A DNA stretch of 38,165 nucleotides. Origin: Pirellulales bacterium (GTDB taxonomy: Bacteria; Planctomycetota; Planctomycetia; Pirellulales; JADZDJ01). The position numbers and the translations under genes were made by a program. Positions within the stretch are counted from its first letter, which is position 1. Every line of letters starts with the position of its first letter. The DNA lies in contig DASRSD010000160.1 of NCBI GenBank assembly GCA_035656635.1, positions 1-38,165 on the forward strand, given 5' to 3'. Positions 13,054 through 36,505 of this stretch are shown one piece after another. The notes beneath the pieces were generated by a model that had not been told where the DNA came from, did no database searches, and saw nothing but the letters and a program-made list of their open reading frames with translations.

Positions 13054-16000
13054 CTACCTGCCGAATCCGACGAAGAAGCTGAAGTTTTGCACTTCGTCGC
13101 CATTCGACTTGGAAACCGGGAATGCCACGTCCAGTGCAATCGGCGCAGGACCCATTGCCGGAACCGAAATTCGCAGCCCGAAGCCCGGCGACACGCGCAC
13201 GTTGCCCCAACGAACATCGGGCTCGACCGTGCCGAAATCGCAGAAAATGACTCCCCGCAACGCATCGTCAGCCGTAATGGGGAATAAATATTCTGCGGTG
13301 CCCAAGGCCATGAAATCGCCGCCCAAGCCCACGCCATCGGAAGCGCGCGGCGTAACTCCGCGGAATGCAAAACCGCGCAAGGTGCTGAAACCGCCGGCGT
13401 AGTAGGCGTCGTAAATCGGCGTGTCCGATCCGCTAACATCAAGCTGTGCGCCAATGCCAATGACGTGGCGGCCCGATTGATCTGCCCGTTGATGCAATAG
13501 GAAATACTGCTGCCCTTGCAAATCAACACGCGGATATTGGAAGGAGCCAATCACTTCTTCAAACGTGGCGGAAACTAAATGTCCTTGCGTGGGCAAAAAC
13601 GGACTGTCGCGGGTATCGTGCGACATGCCTAGCGAGAAGCCGTACAGGGCATTGTTGCCCAACACTTCTTGCAGTTGCGGCGGCGGGCTTGCCACGGCGT
13701 TGTAAATTTGCACTTGCTCGCCGCGGAAGCCAACCGTGCCCTTTAAGTCGGGCGTGAAGGCGTAACCTAAGCTGGTTGTGCCGCCGACGCGGCCTTCGGT
13801 CCAGCTTTCATAAATTCGGGTGAAGTAGTACGCGGAAATGCTGAACTGCACCGGCGTGTCGAAGATGTACGGATCTCGAAACGTAGCCGCATAGCGTTGG
13901 AGTTCTGTGCCGGGATCGGCCTCCAAGCGGAACTGTTGGCCACCGCCGCGCCAGGCAGTGCCGTCGGTAATTGTGTCCCAGGAGCGCGGCAAGCGGGTGA
14001 TGTCAAAGTTTTGCTCATCGAGCACAAAGTTGCCGACCAAGCCGGCATCGGAGTTAATGCCAGCGCCGATCATCAAACGGCCGGTCATCGTTTCCTGGGC
14101 AGTCACGTTCAGATCAACAGACGGATCACCTTGCGGAATGACCTGGTAGCCCACACCCTCTGCTGGAACTTGTGGTGCAGCCCCCGGCGGGGGCGCACCA
14201 TACCCTGGTGGCGGTGCGCCATATGCGGGCGGCGGTGCGCCATAAACTGGCGGCGGCACGCTGGGCGAGCCGGAATAGCCCGGTCCGAATGCATTGCCCC
14301 CGCTGGTGGCAAAACCTGGCGGATAAGTGTTAGGAGGAGGCGCAGATTGCGAATAAGCCGGCGGCGGGCTCGTGTAATTGGGCTGTGCCACAGGCGGCGA
14401 TGAATATACCGGCGGTGGCGGCGAGCTCATCGGCGGCGGGCTGGCCTGATATTGCGCATTGAATGCCGGTGTCGAGCCACCCGAATAACCAGCGTTGGAG
14501 TACGGGGTGGTTAACGGCGCGGCTGCAGTTGGCGGCGGCGCGATGGGTGACATGGCGGCACTTGGTGACAGCGGACGAGCTCCAGGCGGCAAATAATTGG
14601 TCGAAGAACTAGCCGACGGAACGTTCCACGCCGAGCCAGCCTGTTGGGCCGCCGGAGAATTCAAGCTAGACCAGTCGGAACTGGCGCCGGTTGCCTGATA
14701 TCCACCTGTGCCATAACCGGAACCGGGACTTTGAAAGCGCGCCTGTTGAATGCCGGCATCCACTTGCCGACCCGAATTCGGCTGCGAGGGGGTGAAAACT
14801 AGCAAATTGTTTCCGGCGGAATCTTTCGCCGAGGTAATGTCGATTACCACTTCGTCGTCATCGGGCGATTGTCCGCGGTAACTGTCGTAAACCCCGCCGG
14901 GGGGACCGGCCCCAGGACCGGAACCGACGCCGCTTCCATAACCGTTGCCGTATCCACTTCCAGAATTTGCGCCGCTGCCGAAGCCGTTGTAACCACCGCC
15001 GCTGGAGCGCGCGCCCCGACGGTCTGGGTTTCTGCTGTCAGGCCTTTGCGCTACGCTTTCTTCGTTGTCCTGGCTGCTGTCGGGCTTATTGAACGCGATT
15101 TTTGGCGCGCTGCCTTTGGTAGGATCTACGTTGAAGAGCGCGCTGGCGCGCAAGCGACGCTCATCTTCGCGAATTTTTTTGGTGTCGACAATGTCGCCTG
15201 GATGAAGCGACAACCGATCGTAAATCACGGTGTGCTTGGTGTGCGCGTCTTCACCGGCGATGTTCACGTTGATTTTGCCCACGCGGTAACGCTTGCCTTC
15301 GGCCACGTTATAGACCAAATCCATTTCGGGCTTATCTTCGAGCAAGCGGGTTTCGGCCTGAACGTCGGAGAAAATGTAGCCGTGCGTGCCATACACGTCG
15401 CGGATGGCCACGAGATCATGGTCGAGCGTATTTTGGTTGAAATCTTTTCCGGCGGTTTGCTCCAGGCCTTTGTTCAAGTCCGCGACTTTGAACTTTTCGT
15501 TCCCAATGAACGATACATTGCGAATTTTGAACCGCGGACCTTCGTCGACGATGTAAGTGAGCGAGAGCCAGTCTTTATCTGCGTTGTATTGCAGATCGGG
15601 GGAAATTTTTGCGCGGAAGAATCCGAGGCCGCGATAATAGGCGTACAGCTTTTGCACGTCGTCATCGATTTTTTTGCGATCAACTTTTCCGCCAAACAGC
15701 CACATTACGCCGGGCTTCACGGTAATTTGAGTTCGCAACCGGGCCGCACTGGCGATGGTGTTGCCTTGAAAGCTAACCCACAGCACGCGCTGCGATTGCC
15801 CTTCGTCCACCAGGAACACGGCGCGGCGATCGTTGGGCTTGTCGCCTTCCAGCGTGGTAAGCACTACGTGGTTGTATCCCTTTTCGTGATAGTACGATTC
15901 CACGCGGCGCCGGGCCTCTTCAATCGCATACGGATCGAGCGGTTGTCCCTTTTCCAATTCCGATTTTTTCCGCAATGTTGGCGTTCGGATATCTTGATTG

Positions 16001-16785
16001 CCCACGAACCACACCTCTTCGATCGTGGGCCGTTCCACGACCTGGAAGATTACTACAATGCCGCCGGGCACCGCCTGAAATTGCGACTTCACATCGAGAA
16101 ACTTGCGTGAACTGGCCAAGGACCTTACGTCTTCTTGCACCAAGCGTGGATCGAATGGCTGGCCCACGCGGGTGCTCAGTTTCGGCATTTTTGCCATCGG
16201 CGTGGTGTGGTTTCCTTCCACCCGCACTTCGCGAACAATGGTTTCTCCCGCCTGCGAAGTGCTTGTGGAAGACGACACGGTCGGCGCGGTCGGAGGCAAG
16301 GGATCGGGCATGGCCGGCGCCGTGTACGTGGGAAACTTGGAACTCGAGGCCGAATTGATTGGCGGCATCACTGGTCCCGCCGAGGCAGGCTCAAAACTAG
16401 GTCCAGAGAGGCTTGGTGTTGCCGCCGGATTTCTCGAGGCCATCATTGGCACGCTACCTGAAGAACCAGGCGTGGCCGGTTGCGGCATGGCGGCTGACGA
16501 GAGGGGAGCGTATGCAGGCGGCGGGGTGTATACGGTTGCGGCCCCAGCCGGCGCACCGGGAGTCATTGGAGCAGCGCCCGTCGATGCTGCCGGAACATAG
16601 GCCGTGGGTGGCGGCGTGTAAGAGGGCAACGGCGTGAGGCCGCCCGATGCCGATGCGGATGGAGGCAACGGGTATGAAGATCCGTCATAAGAGGAATTCT
16701 GCGCCGGCAACAGGCGCACGTCAACTGTTAGCCCAGCGACCAGCGCCAAGCTGCCGACAATCAGGCGGCGGCGGAGTGCGACCAT
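13054..16785 (-). CDS. BamA/Omp85-family outer membrane assembly protein with a large low-complexity insert
   Basis: A 1243-residue outer membrane protein. The start at 16785 gives a signal peptide (MVALRRRLIVGSLALVAGL) and has AGGGA 11 bases upstream. Residues 30-180 are Pro/Ala/Ser-rich. About 183-565 hold roughly five POTRA domains with typical openings (VREVRVEGN, IEEVWFVGNQDI, RVLWVSFQGNT, IRNVSFIGNEKF, YRVGKINVNI). About 566-880 is an insert rich in Gly, Ser and Pro with YGAPPP repeats. The rest is the beta-barrel with the Omp85 motif GGFSTLRGFAFRG. The last residues are FFVGFGR rather than ending in Phe. BamA folds outer-membrane beta-barrels. At about 800 residues, ordinary BamA is much shorter. 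It is last in a minus-strand row after the VWA and M28 genes. Confidence 0.9.
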   Translation of the reverse strand: MVALRRRLIVGSLALVAGLTVDVRLLPAQNSSYDGSSYPLPPSASASGGLTPLPSYTPPPTAYVPAASTGAAPMTPGAPAGAATVYTPPPAYAPLSSAAMPQPATPGSSGSVPMMASRNPAATPSLSGPSFEPASAGPVMPPINSASSSKFPTYTAPAMPDPLPPTAPTVSSSTSTSQAGETIVREVRVEGNHTTPMAKMPKLSTRVGQPFDPRLVQEDVRSLASSRKFLDVKSQFQAVPGGIVVIFQVVERPTIEEVWFVGNQDIRTPTLRKKSELEKGQPLDPYAIEEARRRVESYYHEKGYNHVVLTTLEGDKPNDRRAVFLVDEGQSQRVLWVSFQGNTIASAARLRTQITVKPGVMWLFGGKVDRKKIDDDVQKLYAYYRGLGFFRAKISPDLQYNADKDWLSLTYIVDEGPRFKIRNVSFIGNEKFKVADLNKGLEQTAGKDFNQNTLDHDLVAIRDVYGTHGYIFSDVQAETRLLEDKPEMDLVYNVAEGKRYRVGKINVNIAGEDAHTKHTVIYDRLSLHPGDIVDTKKIREDERRLRASALFNVDPTKGSAPKIAFNKPDSSQDNEESVAQRPDSRNPDRRGARSSGGGYNGFGSGANSGSGYGNGYGSGVGSGPGAGPPGGVYDSYRGQSPDDDEVVIDITSAKDSAGNNLLVFTPSQPNSGRQVDAGIQQARFQSPGSGYGTGGYQATGASSDWSSLNSPAAQQAGSAWNVPSASSSTNYLPPGARPLSPSAAMSPIAPPPTAAAPLTTPYSNAGYSGGSTPAFNAQYQASPPPMSSPPPPVYSSPPVAQPNYTSPPPAYSQSAPPPNTYPPGFATSGGNAFGPGYSGSPSVPPPVYGAPPPAYGAPPPGYGAPPPGAAPQVPAEGVGYQVIPQGDPSVDLNVTAQETMTGRLMIGAGINSDAGLVGNFVLDEQNFDITRLPRSWDTITDGTAWRGGGQQFRLEADPGTELQRYAATFRDPYIFDTPVQFSISAYYFTRIYESWTEGRVGGTTSLGYAFTPDLKGTVGFRGEQVQIYNAVASPPPQLQEVLGNNALYGFSLGMSHDTRDSPFLPTQGHLVSATFEEVIGSFQYPRVDLQGQQYFLLHQRADQSGRHVIGIGAQLDVSGSDTPIYDAYYAGGFSTLRGFAFRGVTPRASDGVGLGGDFMALGTAEYLFPITADDALRGVIFCDFGTVEPDVRWGNVRVSPGFGLRISVPAMGPAPIALDVAFPVSKSNGDEVQNFSFFVGFGR

Positions 16786-17088
16786 CAGGTTCGCTTCCCT
16801 GCGACGAGTGTCATGCACTGAAATAGAAGAACAAGACAAGTATTGCAACCAATTACTCCAACCCAGACCGGGCTGAATCAATTGCCTCGGGCGCACACGA
16901 CAAGTCCACACACCGGCCATCGATTCCAGATGGCAGCGCAGGGTCCGCCCGAAGGGTGCGGAAAAATACTGCAAACCGCAATCACCGGCAAGGCGAAGTA
17001 GCGAGAAATCTACGGTGACAAGCGAAATGGCAGCCTTGGCAAGTTGCACAACGTGCTAGCAGTCGCGGCGTGTACTATTTGCAACGGT
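16786..17088. other. Intergenic gap between the M28 and bamA genes
   Basis: About 300 bases. The bamA frame stays open leftward through this stretch, but the translation has no signal or family resemblance. Apart from the bamA ribosome binding site, nothing recognisable was seen; it probably carries a bamA promoter. Confidence 0.4.
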
Positions 17089-25903: not shown

Positions 25904-28786
25904 TCATTCTGGTAACATCGGTCTCGTAATCGAACCTGTCAGCGACTTAAGTCTCTCAGCAGCTTCCCGGTACAGATGGATATATGGCCGGAGTTCGGAT
26001 ATCGCATCTTTTAAGCGAGTCCGCCTTTCATTAAAACCATACGGAATCACCCCATCGCCGGTGTACCTCAACATCATCTTTTCGAGGCGGGATGGTGCGA
26101 TGTTATCGCGCTCAGACAAATAGCATTCGACAATGGAATGTCGGCTCAATCGAAGCGAACTGATCTTAATGACAGTTGGTGGACAGGCTCCCAATGTTGC
26201 CTGCCAGCCGTTTCGGAGACGCTTTGAAATTACTCTAGTGCCAGGGCGATCATCTTCGGGCACTTCCAATATTTCTTTGATCTCATTTACAAGAGTCGTG
26301 CGATGCTGGTGGGAATAGAGGCGACCAATTTGTTTTACGCTCAATTCGCTCAAATGCTCTGGCGCGTCAAAACACACGGCGACCTTGTCATTCCACTTAA
26401 TCGGCGGCATGGCCTCCTGCCAATCATACGCGCGAGATATTACGAGAGTTGATGCGCGGCAAGTCCTAAGCAACCCGGGGTCGAGAAATGTGGTGCCCGT
26501 CGAACAACACACTAGGGCGTTTTTCCAGGGCATCGGATATACGTCTCGTGATGCGATTTGTGCGATGTTTTGCGGCGCGAAAAGAATCGCAAATGCGATG
26601 AGACTCTTTAAAGTGTCGTCCGCCAATTCCTCTGCAAATGGCAACGCTGCTTCGAGGCCGTCTCGTTGGAGTGTTAGCGGCAAATGCTGCGATCCTTCGA
26701 TGACCGATAGAAAAGAGATTTCCAGTATGTTGGCACTGAGGGATAACTTCGTGTCATTGTCGTCGATTACAACAAGTCCATTGCAAGTAAGCCTCGGGGG
26801 CAATGAATGTCGTGATTTATCTCTTCTCTTTGACTCACGGGGGGAATACCGGCCATATCGGCCGGTATAAGGAAACCTGCGAAAATACCACTCCAAGAAT
26901 TCAAAACCCCAATGGACGGACGTAAATCCTTTCGCCTCCAAGTAGTGCCAGCAAATTGGATTGTTCGGCGAAAACCATTGTGATAATGAATTGGATGTGC
27001 CCGGCAGTGGTCGCTTAGTCCGCCCTTCGAGCAGTAAAGCGCTTCCATTCGTGATATGGAATCGCTCAACGACTGGATACTCAAGACAGTACCAATCCCA
27101 ACTGTCGTACTTTCTGAGGGTGTCTCGTGCCCTGTTTGACAGCCGAACACGAATTCGCGTGCCATATCCCGGTTGCTTGATCTTTTTGACTGCGATTGAT
27201 TCCTCGTTTAAGCGAGCGGTGAATTCGTATCCAATACGATGTTCAAAATGCCGCGACGACACATGTATTTGATCGCCCATGAGGAACGCTGCCAGCGCCC
27301 CTACTCCGAAACGTCCGGAACGTGGAAGAACTGGGGCACCATCATTTAGAAACAGTGACTTCCATTCACGGCTCTCGCGAAGAGATTTTCCGGCCGTCAA
27401 AAAATACTCACGGATTACAGCATCGGTCATCCCAATGCCGCGATCCTCGATAGTGAAGTATGCACCTGAATCATTGTCCTCAAATAATAAGACCACGTCC
27501 GCATTGCTCGTTGTGCCGCCGAACACGTCAATCGGCTCACGAACATAACGTGGCTTGTATACTCGTAGTTCACGAACTGCATCTACAGAGTTCTGTAAGA
27601 GTTCACGAACGCCAATCTCGGGATTGTCACCATATAGTGGCTTGACTAATTTCTTAAGCAGTTCGCCACCTTCGGCGCGGAATTGGATGTCCGCTGCCAC
27701 ATACGACACCGTGTTCCCAAATTGCCTGATGTCGTCGAGATTTGATCTTACTCGGCGAATGGTCAGTGTTAGGTCTTGCAGACCGGAATATCGGCCATTG
27801 AGTTCGTCAAGCAATTCCCAAGACGAGTCAAGTTCGTATTGAATTCCATTAAGCCATCCCTTGATCTTCAGAAATGTCTTAACGTCTTTCGGCTTTGCGT
27901 GTACAAATACTGCTTTTGGGTCTTCGTGACTTTGGCGCACGTCGCGTATGCCCTTATGGGCTATCCATTCGTCGCGCGATTTCGGATTGCGGAGCTTGTG
28001 GATTCGCAGAAATTCGCGGGGGGCACGTTCCGCTTGCAATTGCAAATAGTCGGCCACTCTCAATGCTGCCATCAAAAACACGGCATGAATATTTTGATAT
28101 TCGCGAACATCGTATTTGTTACGCAGATAGCCTAGACAGTCTCTCAACTCCATAAAATGACTGCGTGCGATAAATCCCGCGATGTCTCGCACTTCATATT
28201 TTATTCCATTGATAAGTCTAAATGGCGAACCAGTAACTTGCGGCAACCCCCAAAGCGCTATCTCATGCGCTAAGCGGCTATGATGCTTGCGAAGGAATTC
28301 TTCACCGATAATTCTCCGTTGTTGCGCAGTCCACACGTCAGGCGGCAACAGAATATCGAGTTGATCGTCCTGGAACATGCCCCTGAGCGCGTTAGACCCA
28401 TATTTTTGCTGCTCGATCAGAAATTCCTTCCAAAGTACATGCCACGGCTTATCCCCGATGCCTCTAATTCGCTTGCGCGGTTGAGTAACAAGGCTTGCAA
28501 AACAATCTTCATTCAGCAACATCGCCGAGTCGTGGAGCAAAGTAGCAAGTACAAGTGCCGCTGCGTCCTGCGCGGTGACAGACTTCCATGCTTCATCGGA
28601 AATCAATGATGTTGCCGTGACAAGCACTTGTTCCACATGAAGCGGGCCGTGGTCGGTCCAATCAGGAAAGAATGTCAGATGGGCCTTTTCCATCCATTGC
28701 TGCACGCGATCGACGGCTAAATTAACCGTGCTGAAAAGGCGAGGATGCGATAGTAGTAATTCAGCAAGGCGATCGGGTAAAGTCAT
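25904..28786 (-). CDS. HD-domain phosphohydrolase fused to a GHKL (Hsp90-like) ATPase
   Basis: A 960-residue soluble protein. Its N-terminal 260 residues form an HD-superfamily domain: His46 and His50 in DHGPLHVEQV, His85-Asp86 in ATLLHDSAML, and Asp246 in ALRVADYLQL, so a metal-binding set is present. Residues about 370-550 form a GHKL ATPase: N-box RELLQNSVDAV (394-404, catalytic Glu395, Mg-binding Asn399), G1 box DRGIGMTD (448-455) and G2 box GRFGVGALAAF (491-501). The C-terminal 400 residues resemble no named domain. The order HD plus Hsp90-like ATPase is known to me from bacterial conflict-type genes, mostly uncharacterised. It is last in the operon, 40 bases after the RelA/SpoT-like gene, with GGTAGG before its ATG. 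The HD part may hydrolyse a nucleotide made by that neighbour (inference). Confidence 0.85.
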   Translation of the reverse strand: MTLPDRLAELLLSHPRLFSTVNLAVDRVQQWMEKAHLTFFPDWTDHGPLHVEQVLVTATSLISDEAWKSVTAQDAAALVLATLLHDSAMLLNEDCFASLVTQPRKRIRGIGDKPWHVLWKEFLIEQQKYGSNALRGMFQDDQLDILLPPDVWTAQQRRIIGEEFLRKHHSRLAHEIALWGLPQVTGSPFRLINGIKYEVRDIAGFIARSHFMELRDCLGYLRNKYDVREYQNIHAVFLMAALRVADYLQLQAERAPREFLRIHKLRNPKSRDEWIAHKGIRDVRQSHEDPKAVFVHAKPKDVKTFLKIKGWLNGIQYELDSSWELLDELNGRYSGLQDLTLTIRRVRSNLDDIRQFGNTVSYVAADIQFRAEGGELLKKLVKPLYGDNPEIGVRELLQNSVDAVRELRVYKPRYVREPIDVFGGTTSNADVVLLFEDNDSGAYFTIEDRGIGMTDAVIREYFLTAGKSLRESREWKSLFLNDGAPVLPRSGRFGVGALAAFLMGDQIHVSSRHFEHRIGYEFTARLNEESIAVKKIKQPGYGTRIRVRLSNRARDTLRKYDSWDWYCLEYPVVERFHITNGSALLLEGRTKRPLPGTSNSLSQWFSPNNPICWHYLEAKGFTSVHWGFEFLEWYFRRFPYTGRYGRYSPRESKRRDKSRHSLPPRLTCNGLVVIDDNDTKLSLSANILEISFLSVIEGSQHLPLTLQRDGLEAALPFAEELADDTLKSLIAFAILFAPQNIAQIASRDVYPMPWKNALVCCSTGTTFLDPGLLRTCRASTLVISRAYDWQEAMPPIKWNDKVAVCFDAPEHLSELSVKQIGRLYSHQHRTTLVNEIKEILEVPEDDRPGTRVISKRLRNGWQATLGACPPTVIKISSLRLSRHSIVECYLSERDNIAPSRLEKMMLRYTGDGVIPYGFNERRTRLKDAISELRPYIHLYREAAERLKSLTGSITRPMLPE

Positions 28787-28826
28787 TTGGCAGCCTACCT
28801 ACCCAAATATTCGGGACACTGCACTA

Positions 28827-29537
28827 TTATTTGCAGTGATCGTCATAAGATTTGAATATGGAATCAACGAGGCGCGTTGCACTTGATGTCAAGCGTGCTA
28901 ATACCTTTAATTGTTCATTACATGCAACGCTCGTGGTCCGTTTTGGGTAATTAAGTTTGTGCGAGACTTCGCCCCATAGTTCTTCGCTCAATGTACGCAC
29001 TTGCAACTCGCACGCGGTCTCCGTCGTAGTATTCGCACGCACTACGTAATGAACACTTGTGTACATCGTATCGACGCGCACGTTGCACTTGATTCCGATC
29101 GACGAAAAGAAAGTCTCGTACTCGTGGTCCCAGAGATTCGCAATTGGGCCTTCGAGCAATTCGTATTTTTGCAGCTTAAAGAGAGCAAGCAATTGCGGAT
29201 GGATCGCACGCATCTGATCCGTATGCAGATGAAGTACGCGCACTCCAGCAAGGTCGGTTATTCGCGAGAATAAATTGGTCGCTGTGATGTCGAAGTGCTT
29301 TCCCCCTCGTTTGCATTCGATACATTTGCGACGAAGTTTTTCTCTCAGGTGGCTCGGGTCCTTAACTCGGTGTTTCGCAAATTTAATAAATGGAACTAAA
29401 CCGGGTGCAGTCGCGATGTCACCATGCAACACCTCTGCAAATCGTTCAAAGTCATGTCGTTCGCGCTTAAATAAATTAACACAGTCGCTTATTCGCTTTC
29501 GCTCGGCCACATTCGGCGTATAAGTTGTCTTCGCCAT
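28827..29537 (-). CDS. Stand-alone RelA/SpoT-domain nucleotide synthetase (small alarmone synthetase / toxSAS-like)
   Basis: A 236-residue protein made of one RelA/SpoT synthetase domain; no HD hydrolase, TGS or ACT domain is attached. The family motifs are in order: HRVKDPSHLREKLRRK (56-71, ATP site), DLAGVRV (95-101, Mg-binding Asp), YTSVHYVV (159-166, acceptor stacking Tyr) and ELQVRTLSEELWGEVSHKL (177-195, catalytic Glu). The key residues look intact, so it should transfer pyrophosphate from ATP. Known members make ppGpp, ppApp or modify tRNA 3' ends (toxSAS); which applies here is unknown. It is third in a four-gene operon, 25 bases after ParA and 40 bases before the HD/GHKL gene. No Shine-Dalgarno is visible. 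Confidence 0.85.
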   Translation of the reverse strand: MAKTTYTPNVAERKRISDCVNLFKRERHDFERFAEVLHGDIATAPGLVPFIKFAKHRVKDPSHLREKLRRKCIECKRGGKHFDITATNLFSRITDLAGVRVLHLHTDQMRAIHPQLLALFKLQKYELLEGPIANLWDHEYETFFSSIGIKCNVRVDTMYTSVHYVVRANTTTETACELQVRTLSEELWGEVSHKLNYPKRTTSVACNEQLKVLARLTSSATRLVDSIFKSYDDHCK

Positions 29538-29562
29538 AAATGATTTCGGGTGCGTGACTGGC

Positions 29563-30552
29563 TCACCGAGTCAATGTAAGAATGCGCTTCGCAATCTGGC
29601 GAAAGTCTGTTATTGCGTTCCGGCGTTTATGTTTGTCTCCTGTATTGACGAGGAACATAGGAACACCTTTAGCTTGTGATTGCTGGACGAGCGGACCGTA
29701 ATCCCTGACTTCCCCGAGTTTGTGGCCGACCTTGCCCGTTCTTCGCAATGGGGTCACCACATGCTTCAGCACCGAAACAACGTCGCGGTATATGTGACGC
29801 TCAAACAGTGAGGCGTATGTGGCGGGCGTGGATGCCATTTCTCCGCCATAGGTGCGAAACCGTTGCGGAATATATCCAAGGTACTGCGGTTGCCCCTTCA
29901 AGAGCTTGACTTTGCTCGGTGCGAGCGTTGCAATTGTTTCCCAATCGGTGATCCAATCCTTCAGTGTCTGTCCGAGCGTAATGAGCGCCCGGACCGAAAA
30001 GAAATCGCATACACTGGGAATAATGAAGTAGTCAGAGTCAAGCAGCAGGACTCGATTTAGTGGGCCAATGTTAGGGCCAGCATCGTAAAAGACATAGTCG
30101 AAACGATGAACTTTGCAAAGCGACTCCACCAATTCACTTATCGCCGTGGTCGTCCTAAACCCCGGCACCCTTCGCTTGAAGCAATCTGTCCAAGCATCAT
30201 TAAGTGCCAATTCAAATCGTGAAAGCTGAATGTCGCCGGGAAGTAAAAATGCGCGAGGTTGTCCCGGCATTTCCAGCAACTTCACAACGCGGCCTTGACC
30301 ATCACCATCACAAATCGGTTTTAGTGCCGACCAAATTGTTCTGCCGTGTGATGTTTCGGAAGTATCAAGCAGGTCATCGACAACATTATCTGGCACCAAA
30401 TATGATGTGAGATTGCATTGTGGATCGCTATCAACCAAAAGAACTCGCATGCCTTCTGCCGCGAGCGCAGCAGCGACATTCACGGTCAAAGTAGTTTTCC
30501 CTACTCCACCTTTGTGGTTATAGATCGTAATTTTTTTGGCTGGCGGCCGCAT
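29563..30552 (-). CDS. ParA/MinD-type P-loop ATPase
   Basis: A 329-residue protein with the deviant Walker A motif KGGVGKTT (14-21) that defines the ParA/MinD/Soj group. A second signature Asp lies in VLLVDSDPQCNL (39-48), and the Walker B strand is FDYVFYDAGPN. ParA proteins dimerise on ATP and bind DNA non-specifically to position plasmids or protein complexes. No parB-like gene or centromere-like repeat is adjacent, and the genes on both sides are a winged-helix-like protein and a RelA/SpoT synthetase. A partition role is therefore not supported; positioning or regulating the neighbouring enzymes is one option. The start is the ATG at 30552, 24 bases after the upstream stop, without a Shine-Dalgarno. 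Confidence 0.85.
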   Translation of the reverse strand: MRPPAKKITIYNHKGGVGKTTLTVNVAAALAAEGMRVLLVDSDPQCNLTSYLVPDNVVDDLLDTSETSHGRTIWSALKPICDGDGQGRVVKLLEMPGQPRAFLLPGDIQLSRFELALNDAWTDCFKRRVPGFRTTTAISELVESLCKVHRFDYVFYDAGPNIGPLNRVLLLDSDYFIIPSVCDFFSVRALITLGQTLKDWITDWETIATLAPSKVKLLKGQPQYLGYIPQRFRTYGGEMASTPATYASLFERHIYRDVVSVLKHVVTPLRRTGKVGHKLGEVRDYGPLVQQSQAKGVPMFLVNTGDKHKRRNAITDFRQIAKRILTLTR

Positions 30553-31499: not shown

Positions 31500-31851
31500 C
31501 GCTCTGCGTTCCACGATGGCGCATGGCCGATTCTCGGCTAAAATGACGGCGACGGCGCGCCGCCCTTGGTTTTCAGAACAAAATGCTAGACTTGATTTGG
31601 TCTAACCCTTGCCCATTGGAGAAATAACGACCACAGCCCCATAGTGGCTGTCACAATTTGAAATTGATGCGAGTGCATCAATCTGTCTCCCAGAGATACC
31701 GCCAAACTGAGCCCGACGGCTCTTTCCAAACGAGACAGGCTGAGCGCTCCCCGTGGAAACGGGGAGCGCCGCCTGGCCTTCGTTTGGTCCCTTGGCGGGG
31801 ACTCTGGGAGGGTCCAGTGTGGCGCTCCCTTTTGTTTTCGGGGAAAACATC
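31500..31851 (+). ncRNA. Highly structured leader-like element, candidate attenuator or structured RNA
   Basis: No gene lies in this stretch, but from 31634 it is packed with pairings. Small hairpins are CAGCC/GGCTG (31634-31650), CAATTT/AAATTG (31654-31666) and ATTGATGC/GCATCAAT (31663-31682). A branched fold follows: outer stem CTCCCAGAG/CTCTGGGAG (31687-31695 with 31802-31810) plus CCGCCAA/TTGGCGG (31699-31705 with 31792-31798); hairpin GAGCC/GGCTC (31709-31722); stem CCAAACGA/TCGTTTGG (31726-31733 with 31780-31787); stem CAGGC/GCCTG; and an apical 11-bp hairpin GCGCTCCCCGT/ACGGGGAGCGC (31744-31769) closed by GGAA. GGGAGCGCC (31762-31770) can instead pair with GGCGCTCCC (31821-31829), which is followed by TTTTGTTTT. 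The gene at 31852 begins 13 bases later. Confidence 0.5.
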
Positions 31852-32112
31852 GTGAGTACAACTAAAAGCACGACGGCTCTTGGAATTCTGATTGTCCTGA
31901 CGTTCGGAATAATTTGGACCGTGGCAAGTCAATATCCGACAAAAGCCGAACTAGAGCAAAAAGCTCAAACCAAGATGATTGAAGATGCGGTGAATGCAGC
32001 GCAACAAAAACATCTTCACGAATGGGAAGATGAATGGCAGCGGCGATGGGGCGAACCGGCCCCAACCGTTTTATATCGACAATCGCAAGATGCGAAGAAC
32101 GGTAATCAGTGA
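31852..32112 (+). CDS. Small membrane-anchored protein
   Basis: An 86-residue protein from a GTG at 31852, supported by CGGGGA 7-8 bases upstream; the in-frame extension from 31753 runs through the hairpin element and is not taken. Residues about 8-25 (ALGILIVLTFGIIWTVAS) form one membrane helix. It is followed by a charged, probably coiled-coil region rich in Glu, Lys and Gln (KAELEQKAQTKMIEDAVNAA) and a Trp-rich segment HEWEDEWQRRWGE. No family is recognised. It follows the structured leader, which may regulate it. Confidence 0.5.
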   Translation: MSTTKSTTALGILIVLTFGIIWTVASQYPTKAELEQKAQTKMIEDAVNAAQQKHLHEWEDEWQRRWGEPAPTVLYRQSQDAKNGNQ

Positions 32113-32214: not shown

Positions 32215-32811
32215 CTACCATCCGCCGTGAATCACGGCGTAAACTGTTGGGCGAGAAACTTGGCACGCCCGTGCAATGCTGCTGACGTTTTCACCAGCCT
32301 TGCGCAACGTGCGAATAGCTTGGACCTTTTCGGCAATGGCTTTGGTTTGCGTTCCTTCCTTGCGTCCACCCCACGTTACGCCACGTTCGCGGGCTGCCGC
32401 TTGCCCGGCTAGCACGCGCTCTGCACGGCATTCTGTTTCAAACTGAGCCACGCTCGCAAGCATGTTCGCCAGCATCCGCCCTGCCGGCGTCGAAAGATCA
32501 ATCCCTTCGCGAAGCGAAACGAGATTGATTCCACGGTGTTGAAGATCGTCAAAAAGCGCCGTCAGCCCGCGAGCAGTGCGCCCAAGCCGATCCAATCGCC
32601 AGCAAACGACTGTGGCGACTTCCCTGTGTTCAATGGCTGCCTGTAGCTTTTTCCAACCCGGCCGCTCCATTGTCTTGCCCGTGAATTTGTCACGGTAAAA
32701 CACAACTGGCCGCGATTGTGCGGCTGACCACCGCTCTAGATCGGGCAACTGGCTGCGATGATCTTGTCGGCGGGAACTAACGCGAACATACATAGCAACG
32801 TGCTTTTGCAT
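32215..32811 (-). CDS. Serine site-specific recombinase (resolvase/invertase family)
   Basis: A 198-residue protein. ATG 32811 is preceded by AGGAGAG at good spacing; an in-frame ATG at 32835 is less likely. The N-terminal catalytic domain carries YVRVSSRRQ with the nucleophile Ser12, then VVCWRLDRLGRTARGL with the conserved Arg pair, and GIDLSTPAGRMLANMLASVA. A C-terminal helix-turn-helix reads NVSSIARACQVSRPTVYAVI. Length and order match Tn3-type resolvases and DNA invertases. Such enzymes resolve multimers of plasmids or invert DNA segments. It is divergent from the NUMOD1-like gene. A perfect TTGACA and the palindrome GACAAaTTGTC (32847-32857) lie just upstream and may be its promoter and own binding site. 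Confidence 0.92.
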   Translation of the reverse strand: MQKHVAMYVRVSSRRQDHRSQLPDLERWSAAQSRPVVFYRDKFTGKTMERPGWKKLQAAIEHREVATVVCWRLDRLGRTARGLTALFDDLQHRGINLVSLREGIDLSTPAGRMLANMLASVAQFETECRAERVLAGQAAARERGVTWGGRKEGTQTKAIAEKVQAIRTLRKAGENVSSIARACQVSRPTVYAVIHGGW

Positions 32812-32846
32812 GGCTGACTCTCCTAATTCAACCATGCTTCAATTTC

Positions 32847-33818: not shown

Positions 33819-33922
33819 AATAGCTAATTCAAAGCGGCTGCCTGCCGCAATTGCTGCGCAACCAGCCGTCTTACTCTCCGCTGGTTTCGTGTATCCCTGA
33901 ACAAGAGAGTTTGAGGCATTGT

Positions 33923-36505
33923 ATGAACGAGTTTTCAGTGGGGCTTCCCCGATTCCTTCAAGCATCCTGTAATTCACAAAATGAAGATTTAGTGAAGCGC
34001 GTTTGGAAGAGTTGGCCAGTTGAAATACAGGTCAACATTCGGACAGACATTGGTGAACCAGTTGATGATGATAACAATCCAGCAAAAAGACGACATAACG
34101 GACGAGATTTTTACAATTTCCGCTACCCGCGCGACGCGGGAGTCAAGCCAGATTGGGCAGAGCGTTACCTGACGTATCCATTGGAAGAATACGCTAGCGA
34201 AATCGGATCGACGGGATTCGGAGCGGATGGCAGCCAGTGGGTCGGTTTCGATTTCGATACGATCTTAGGTCATGCGGAAGGGGTCGGAATTTCGGATGCC
34301 GAAATTCAAGAAATTGATATTGCCGTAGAAAGAATTGGTTACGCCGAGCTACGCCGTTCCACGGGGGGAAGAGGCAGACACATTTATGTTCATCTTTCCG
34401 ACTTCAAGAATGTTGTAAACCATACGGAGCACGCCGCTCTTGCACGAGCAATTTTGGCGAAATTGTCGCACGACCTTGGGATGGACCTGACAGCATCCGT
34501 CGATGCGTGCGGCGGCAATATGTGGTTTTGGTCCAGGCGTGCGACTGACGAAAACCGTGGTTTTGAACTTCTCAAAAAAGCAACCACTAAGCTGTCGCCA
34601 ATAGACGTGCCAAATTGGTGCGACTATTTACCTGTGGTAACGAGAAAGCGAAGCAAAATCTATGTTGAAGGATTGAATGAGGATTTTGCGGCTTCTCAAC
34701 CGAAGGTTCGTCGCGATAGACAGCATGACGCTATATTCGCGGAGTACGTTAAACACGCCACATTGATCTATCTGCCGGACCACGGCTGCTACCATTTGCA
34801 CACGGCAGAACTTGCCAAAGTTCACGAAACTTTGAGGCTTCGGGGATTTTTTGAGACGGTAAGCGAAGGAAGCGATCCTGGCAAACCGAACGCTTACGCA
34901 TACCTGCGACCCAATGGTGCGATGTTGGTTGTGCGGTTGGGGAATGCAAAGGAAACGAGCATTTGGGGTGAGACAAAATCCGGTCAAGCATGCATTCTGT
35001 TCAATCAATCTCTCGATTTGCAAAATATCTGCCGTGCCGTTGACGGAGTATGGACTGGAAAGGGTTTTACCTGCCCGACGCTTGAATCCGCGAATCGTGC
35101 TGCTGGATACTTCCGCATCAGCTTACCGCCGGTTGCGGAACGCGCGGTAAGTTTCTCAATTCAAAATGGTGGCCTCTTAGTTACATGCGATCGGATCGGC
35201 AAAGAGCAAGTGAACGGCTGGGCCGGCGAAGGACGAAAGCTCAAACGCCACTTCGCAATCGACCTGCCCTGCGATGATGAATCCAACGATAAGTATCGAC
35301 ATCTTACCACGCCAACAAACGAAGATGCTGGCTGGGCGATGGAGCGCGATGATGGAACTTGGGGGTTTGAGAGCAAATCGACGCTTGAAGACGCACTAAT
35401 CCACGATGGATGCAAGAAAGACGGTGCAAGGAGAGTTCTGGGAGCCGCCGCGAAGCATCCGTGGACTCTTGTTAATGAACCTTTTCAGCCTGAATTTCTG
35501 GCGGGGAGACGCTGGAATCGACATGGCCGAAAATTGATAGTGCCGGGTACCAAAGGAAACCATCGGCATTTCGATCTTATCTTCAAGCAATGCGGTCGAA
35601 TGCTGGACCCGGCAGTAAGCACCGATCCGTGGTGCAGACAGTATGGTGTCACGTCAGGTTCACGATACCTGTTGCTCTGGGCAGCTAGTCTCATTAAGCG
35701 GCCGAAACAACCGTTGCCGTGGTTGTTCTTATGGTCGCCGGAAAATAACACGGGCAAGTCGAGTTTGCATCGCGCCTTGGGAATGCTTTTTGACGGAGGC
35801 GCAACCGACGTTCGCGAAGCGCTGGTCGAAAAGTTCAACGGACAGTTGGCCGGCGCAGTGCTGTGTTATGTGGAAGAGGTATCATTGCCCCGCTCCGCAT
35901 ACGGGAAGATCAAATCCTGGATCGACAGTCCGACGATTTCGATTCGCGAGATGCGCACGACGTCGTACACGCTGACAAACACGGCGCACTTTATTCAAAC
36001 AGCCAATGGTCGTGATGCTTGTCCCGTTGAACAGCACGACGACCGCATCGTGGTAATCCCCGTGACTCCGATCGAAGAAAAGTTGATTCCGTGGACCGAC
36101 GAAATGGCTCCGTCGCTCCTAAGCGAAGCGCCGAATTTTCTGGCGACGTTGTTTGACACACCGTTACCCCGTTCAGCCGGCAGATTATTTTTACCCGTGC
36201 TAACTACTCCCGACAAAATTGAAATGATGCAGGGCGACAAAAAAACAGAACGCGAAACGATTGTTCAAGCTTTGATTGAAAAGATTACGCAACTTATCAA
36301 ACGGAACAACCGATGGCACGGTTTCGTCGGCGACCTGCTCAAAGCCATTGGAAAAGGCGAATGGAGCAATAGTCCGGCTACGCTTTCCAGTTACCTTGAC
36401 GACGCAGTTGGCGCACTTGCCGCCCACGGAATCGAGGTTGAAATCTCTGCCACTCAGGTACATGGCCAACGGCCAATCACAATTCAATTGGCCACGGCCG
36501 TTTAG
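33923..36505 (+). CDS. Fused AEP-type primase and SF3-type helicase, probable replication protein of the element
   Basis: An 860-residue protein. I chose ATG 33923, with GAGG 6 bases upstream, over the extension to 33851. The N-terminal part looks like an archaeo-eukaryotic primase: WVGFDFD (106-112) supplies acidic metal ligands, and RRSTGGRGRHIYVHL (144-158) matches the S-x-G-G-x-G-x-H nucleotide-binding motif. From about 560 a helicase domain follows: Walker A SPENNTGKS (605-613), Walker B VLCYVEEVSL with Glu651/Glu652, and TLTNTAHFIQTANGRDACPV, the sensor-like stretch of D5/SF3-type helicases. Such fusions start replication of plasmids, phages and integrative elements. The repeat-rich region directly upstream is its likely origin. 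The family level (AEP, SF3-like) is inferred from motifs. Confidence 0.8.
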   Translation: MNEFSVGLPRFLQASCNSQNEDLVKRVWKSWPVEIQVNIRTDIGEPVDDDNNPAKRRHNGRDFYNFRYPRDAGVKPDWAERYLTYPLEEYASEIGSTGFGADGSQWVGFDFDTILGHAEGVGISDAEIQEIDIAVERIGYAELRRSTGGRGRHIYVHLSDFKNVVNHTEHAALARAILAKLSHDLGMDLTASVDACGGNMWFWSRRATDENRGFELLKKATTKLSPIDVPNWCDYLPVVTRKRSKIYVEGLNEDFAASQPKVRRDRQHDAIFAEYVKHATLIYLPDHGCYHLHTAELAKVHETLRLRGFFETVSEGSDPGKPNAYAYLRPNGAMLVVRLGNAKETSIWGETKSGQACILFNQSLDLQNICRAVDGVWTGKGFTCPTLESANRAAGYFRISLPPVAERAVSFSIQNGGLLVTCDRIGKEQVNGWAGEGRKLKRHFAIDLPCDDESNDKYRHLTTPTNEDAGWAMERDDGTWGFESKSTLEDALIHDGCKKDGARRVLGAAAKHPWTLVNEPFQPEFLAGRRWNRHGRKLIVPGTKGNHRHFDLIFKQCGRMLDPAVSTDPWCRQYGVTSGSRYLLLWAASLIKRPKQPLPWLFLWSPENNTGKSSLHRALGMLFDGGATDVREALVEKFNGQLAGAVLCYVEEVSLPRSAYGKIKSWIDSPTISIREMRTTSYTLTNTAHFIQTANGRDACPVEQHDDRIVVIPVTPIEEKLIPWTDEMAPSLLSEAPNFLATLFDTPLPRSAGRLFLPVLTTPDKIEMMQGDKKTERETIVQALIEKITQLIKRNNRWHGFVGDLLKAIGKGEWSNSPATLSSYLDDAVGALAAHGIEVEISATQVHGQRPITIQLATAV

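Follow-up and report, generated by a model that had tools for sequence, protein, structure and literature searches.

A planctomycete leader RNA family with two covarying, mutually exclusive folds, a probable transcription attenuator

A densely folded leader in a Pirellulales contig

We analysed a 38,165-nt stretch of DNA from a Pirellulales bacterium (GenBank assembly GCA_035656635.1, contig DASRSD010000160.1, positions 1–38,165), hereafter the window. Its right end is probably a mobile element, as it encodes a serine resolvase (32215–32835, minus strand) and a DUF5906 protein (33851–36505, plus strand); chromosomal genes, including that of a BamA-like protein (13054–17049), lie beside this putative mobile element. 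Encoded in a row on the minus strand (25904–30552) are an HD-CE and GHKL ATPase protein, a RelA/SpoT-domain protein and a ParA-like ATPase, possibly a defence or partition module, for which comparison with PADLOC gave no strong match. The resolvase and DUF5906 genes both come after the element described here, which is followed by a gene for an 86-aa protein that matched no Pfam family and lacks a good homolog in relatives. Automated scoring chose an overlapping frame for this gene, and the GTG at 31852 that we adopted as its start is weakly supported.

The original prediction, made from the sequence alone, had described a region of perfect or near-perfect stems, all of which were found in the sequence, and its 11-bp hairpin with a GGAA loop (P6) is indeed nested in P5, P4, P2 and P1 (Table 1). 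The exclusive pairing that it proposed for the 3' side of this hairpin was also borne out, with 31762–31770 (GGGAGCGCC) complementary to 31821–31829 (GGCGCTCCC), directly before the tail TTTTGTTTT. Two additional helices had been missed, namely alt1, which is exclusive as well, and P7. The element can accordingly be drawn as fold A, the nested helices P1-P2-P4-P5-P6, or as fold B, consisting of alt1 as a 5' helix, P7 as a local hairpin and alt2 as a long-range helix. One strand is common to P6 and alt2 and another to alt1 and P4/P5, while the loop of P7 is the 3' strand of P2. P2 might be able to form alongside P7 as a loop pairing. The RNA of 31620–31850 folds with −111.2 kcal/mol compared with −78 ± 4.9 kcal/mol for dinucleotide shuffles (z −6.8; 0 of 200 as good). 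The complementary strand likewise folds well (z −8.1), as nested inverted repeats would be expected to. A scan of Rfam 15 with the window and the family gave no match at the gathering threshold and weak, chance-level matches at relaxed thresholds, in keeping with the earlier statement that no known class was recognised. No description of this RNA was found in the literature, most subscription journals lying outside the scope of the search, and the leader RNA family is apparently undescribed so far.

Table 1. Parts of the element and the gene behind it, in window coordinates.
Feature	Position	Strand	Description	Evidence
Upstream hairpin	31629–31652	+	GC-rich (GACCACAGCC...GGCTGTC), variable among homologs	fold; upstream segments compared
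5' box	31653–31662	+	conserved, ACAATTTGA; conserved RNA begins here	upstream segments compared
P0	31663–31682	+	5' hairpin, stem 31663–31670:31675–31682, loop GAGT	covariation
alt1, 5' strand	31683–31689	+	CTGTCTC, partner 31732–31738 in fold B	sequence; alt1-core covariation
P1, 5' strand	31687–31695	+	CTCCCAGAG, partner 31802–31810 in fold A	fold; covariation
P2, 5' strand	31699–31705	+	CCGCCAA, partner 31792–31798	fold; covariation
P3	31709–31722	+	side hairpin, stem 31709–31713:31718–31722, common to both folds	fold; covariation
P4, 5' strand	31726–31733	+	partner 31780–31787	fold; covariation
alt1, 3' strand	31732–31738	+	GAGACAG, exclusive with P4/P5	covariation
P5	31736–31775	+	stem 31736–31740:31771–31775, encloses P6	fold
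P6	31744–31769	+	11-bp hairpin, stem 31744–31754:31759–31769, GGAA loop	fold; covariation
alt2, 5' strand	31762–31776	+	3' side of P6 and P5, partners 31814–31817 and 31821–31829 in fold B	sequence; covariation; wobble counts
P4, 3' strand	31780–31787	+		fold; covariation
P7	31787–31802	+	hairpin GUCCC/GGGAC, stem 31787–31791:31798–31802, loop = P2 3' strand (31792–31798)	covariation
P1, 3' strand	31802–31810	+	CTCTGGGAG	fold; covariation; energies
alt2, 3' strand	31814–31829	+	CCAG...GGCGCTCCC, 3' half of terminator stem	covariation; wobble counts
U-tract	31830–31838	+	TTTTGTTTT	sequence; T-run count in homologs
Gene behind leader	31852–32112	+	86-aa protein, GTG start, one hydrophobic segment	ORF; hydropathy

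Homologs and compensatory changes in both folds

A blastn search of 97 related genomes returned one relative, on a contig of Pirellula sp. PB1.007, with 71% identity over ~150 bases, and this relative folds with z −8.0. The two sequences were combined into a covariance model (R1) with a hand-made structure, which replaced a misaligned fold obtained by RNAalifold from the two-sequence alignment; the window row carries two inserted N and lacks one base to hold the stems in register, and R1 is a search model only. Of 396 genomes from the order, 74 contained matches to R1, more than 140 in total; these almost always covered the full length of the model and mostly had E-values from 1e-43 to 1e-8. 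Across the phylum, 28 of 392 sampled genomes were positive. An exact-pattern scan of ~85,000 species revealed 29 contigs, of which 27 had Planctomycetota labels (Pirellula, Rhodopirellula, Planctomyces, Schlesneria, Phycisphaerales and Ca. Kuenenia) and two were Verrucomicrobia metagenome-assembled genomes (MAGs); when R1 was run on 240 genomes sampled from the phylum of a Verrucomicrobia-labelled MAG, the one positive was that MAG itself. Positive genomes carry one to seven copies (three in the window's genome), and none was present in a congener of the window's genome or in another member of its family, so presence is patchy. Searches of phages, plasmids and IMG/VR gave no match except a 24-nt chance match.

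In an alignment of 44 copies fitted to R1, 98.7% of the cells pair, 33 of 36 pairs show double-sided changes, and the covariation score is 0.62, compared with less than 0.1 when the partners are slid. Since this alignment leans towards R1, 123 non-redundant copies were also aligned by sequence alone and assessed by mutual information with average-product correction together with pair counts. P0, P1, P2, P3, P4 and P6 pair in 93–98% of the cells with many double changes, and P5 in 92% with few. For the fold B helices, the double changes exceeded those of slid partners in alt2a (98% paired; 47 vs. a slid maximum of 9), alt2b (86%; 53 vs. 27), alt2c (93%; 29 vs. 14) and P7 (98%; 32 vs. a slid maximum of 11). 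The alt1 core is paired in 98% of the cells with 13 double changes, not above the slid maximum of 14, and its main support is one strongly covarying pair, 42–91. Homologs are therefore rich in compensatory changes for both folds, as the covariance check proposed with the original prediction had called for. Pair 26–105 also covaries, a possible contact of the P0 loop with a site 3' of alt1; this loop reads GYG in most homologs and covaries with a CRC site, a match that is not clear in the window copy. A weaker local terminator hairpin could alternatively be formed by the GGGAG of the P1 3' strand, and was rejected with 86% pairing and little covariation compared with alt2. Across all helices, wobble cells comprise 898 G-U and 126 A-C, and in alt2 484 G-U and 7 A-C, an excess which shows that the plus-strand RNA is the conserved molecule.

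Leader position and neighbouring genes

Behind alt2, 111 of the 123 copies (90%) have four or more consecutive T, a feature of 2% of random positions. Same-strand ORFs start at a median of 51 nt past the element, by an automatic and rough choice of start, and mostly have a Shine-Dalgarno-like motif. In one homolog group, promoter-like sequence ends directly before the conserved 5' box, as judged by inspection. A leader peptide was also considered and, by inspection, appears unlikely: GGAG occurs upstream in many copies (one group lacks it), and neither start codon nor frame is kept. Taken at the level of sequence comparison, the RNA family, its two folds, the plus strand, the U-tract and the leader position are established.

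The 106 downstream proteins fall into 77 Pfam families, none occurring more than eight times; the commonest are GYF_2 (8) and LuxR-type HTH (5), followed by kinases, dynamin-like proteins, DnaJ and zinc ribbons (3 each). An association with a pathway, usual for riboswitches and not strictly required of them, was not seen among these 106 proteins. By a crude hydropathy test on crude ORF calls, hydrophobic segments occur in 66% of the downstream proteins and 24% of control ORFs (p 3e-11), and paired CxxC motifs, on the same calls, in 18% and 5%. PADLOC gave 124 matches at 1e-20 in 125 neighbouring proteins and 35 in 125 control proteins drawn at arbitrary positions from mostly the same genomes, counts that are indicative only, the models being redundant. 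Pfam families near the element include integrases, resolvases, N6 methylase, BrxC/D, SAVED and DarT, compared with housekeeping genes in the control, and restriction-modification genes are present too. One genome holds two copies that differ at one position across most of the core and also share a promoter-side block, followed by unrelated coding regions; this near-identity indicates that the leader can spread, or can be kept identical, as a module.

A proposed attenuator and its alternatives

The copies combine a same-strand 5' leader position with two exclusive conserved helices, one of which is a terminator stem with a U-tract, and the attenuator or riboswitch option of the original prediction fits this anatomy. 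We consider it probable that the ~195-nt leader RNA is a riboswitch-like transcription attenuator in which fold A reads through and fold B terminates, its two alternative shapes probably deciding transcription of the gene behind; termination, the direction of switching and the sensing of a signal are what we infer from the aligned sequences. During transcription the 5' part (P0, alt1 and P3) would fold first. If undisturbed, the 3' strands of P4, P5, P2 and P1 would displace alt1 to give fold A, which would take up the terminator's strand and let RNA polymerase enter the gene. A signal (ligand, protein or pausing) that holds alt1 would instead leave the 3' strand of P5/P6 free to form alt2 with the last segment just before the U-tract, with P7 closing inside, and transcription would stop. 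Prefixes of increasing length were folded for the 123 copies. At column 100, where its 3' strand has emerged, alt1 was seen in about 80%; P4/P5 had replaced it at column 146, and P1/P2 had formed by column 171. For 115 of the 123 copies fold A has the lower computed energy, with a mean difference from fold B of about 14 kcal/mol, and alt2 is almost never present in unconstrained minimum-free-energy structures, so the terminated fold B would need kinetics or a bound factor. For the window copy the constrained energies were reversed, favouring fold B; the alignment-derived constraints misfit P5 and P6, and this comparison was therefore set aside.

The leader stands ahead of unrelated accessory genes, mostly for membrane or exported proteins, in mobile/defence islands, and it has apparently moved as a module at least once. 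More tentatively, the family may be a portable RNA sensor of these planctomycete islands, a module-copied switch through which one cellular or infection signal would control unrelated membrane-associated accessory proteins.

In one form of the attenuator a protein, such as an antiterminator or an autoregulator, would bind the leader in place of a small ligand, a sub-case whose probability overlaps that of the attenuator and which we regard as possible without favouring it: the anatomy would be identical, and patchy distribution with multiple copies per genome would suit it, but no single protein family recurs beside the element (the commonest cluster of neighbour proteins occurs at 11 of 134 loci). 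The other options raised by the original prediction, a stand-alone RNA and a recombination site, fit more poorly, though the element does sit in mobile/defence islands. That it is a small RNA of ~195 nt ending at the U-tract, with the gene behind a mere neighbour, is unlikely; such an RNA would account for the self-contained fold, the very stable fold A, the strong U-tract and, in one group, the promoter-like sequence of its own directly upstream, but not for the nearby same-strand ORF in most copies examined, and a covarying exclusive fold on the terminator strand is expected of a switch and not of a stable small RNA. Less probable still is a structured, integron-like recombination or cassette site that folds in single-stranded DNA and recruits diverse genes. 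Like integron attC sites, the element is folded and repeated beside diverse accessory genes, and recombinases nearby, close tandem copies on a few contigs and the module-like duplication agree with such a site; yet the large G-U excess on one strand marks a plus-strand RNA, the element ends in a U-tract in 90% of copies and has promoter-like sequences upstream, and most fetched loci hold one copy, whereas attC copies lie on both sides of a cassette gene.

Among known systems, the probable attenuator resembles riboswitches, or orphan riboswitch candidates, whose expression platform is an intrinsic terminator (e.g. the candidates in PMC11109978 and PMC2864571). It shares with them a 5' leader position, a fold that is compact and conserved, a terminator helix exclusive with an antiterminator helix, and a U-tract. 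Unlike them, it has no metabolic or transport gene association, precedes dozens of unrelated gene families, is nearly restricted to planctomycetes and matches no Rfam model. Leader-peptide attenuators of the trp and ilv type also have an exclusive terminator and antiterminator, but no conserved leader ORF was recognised here by inspection. Type III toxin-antitoxin RNAs (ToxI) similarly place a structured RNA and terminator before a gene in mobile elements; they consist of tandem RNA repeats with a conserved nuclease gene, whereas here the RNA is single and non-repeated and the genes are diverse. The RNA family is apparently new, and of a kind that is already known. It is large and strongly conserved in a phylum with few known regulatory RNAs, and offers a ready model for RNA switching, since covariation reveals the two folds together with a probable loop contact. 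If the signal were found, it would reveal what many uncharacterised membrane and defence-island genes respond to, and would make the family a case of modular spread of a regulatory RNA to positions before unrelated genes.

Several individual copies deserve mention. Loci L063 and L175, from two families, are 97% identical across a 617-base stretch that contains the RNA, a similarity suggestive of recent horizontal transfer. Tandem pairs ~0.6–1.4 kb apart occur at L065 (5588–5752 and 6283–6444), L066 and L127. The third copy of the window's own genome (L046, 104–258) and the copy at L117 (4919–5076), which lies ahead of a putative integrase, are without a clear terminator. Copies before genes for ~100-aa LuxR-type HTH proteins (L101, L102, L109, L114 and L115) mostly lack P3, and in at least three loci of this set a family of roughly 300-aa proteins, represented at L109, is encoded ~1 kb upstream.
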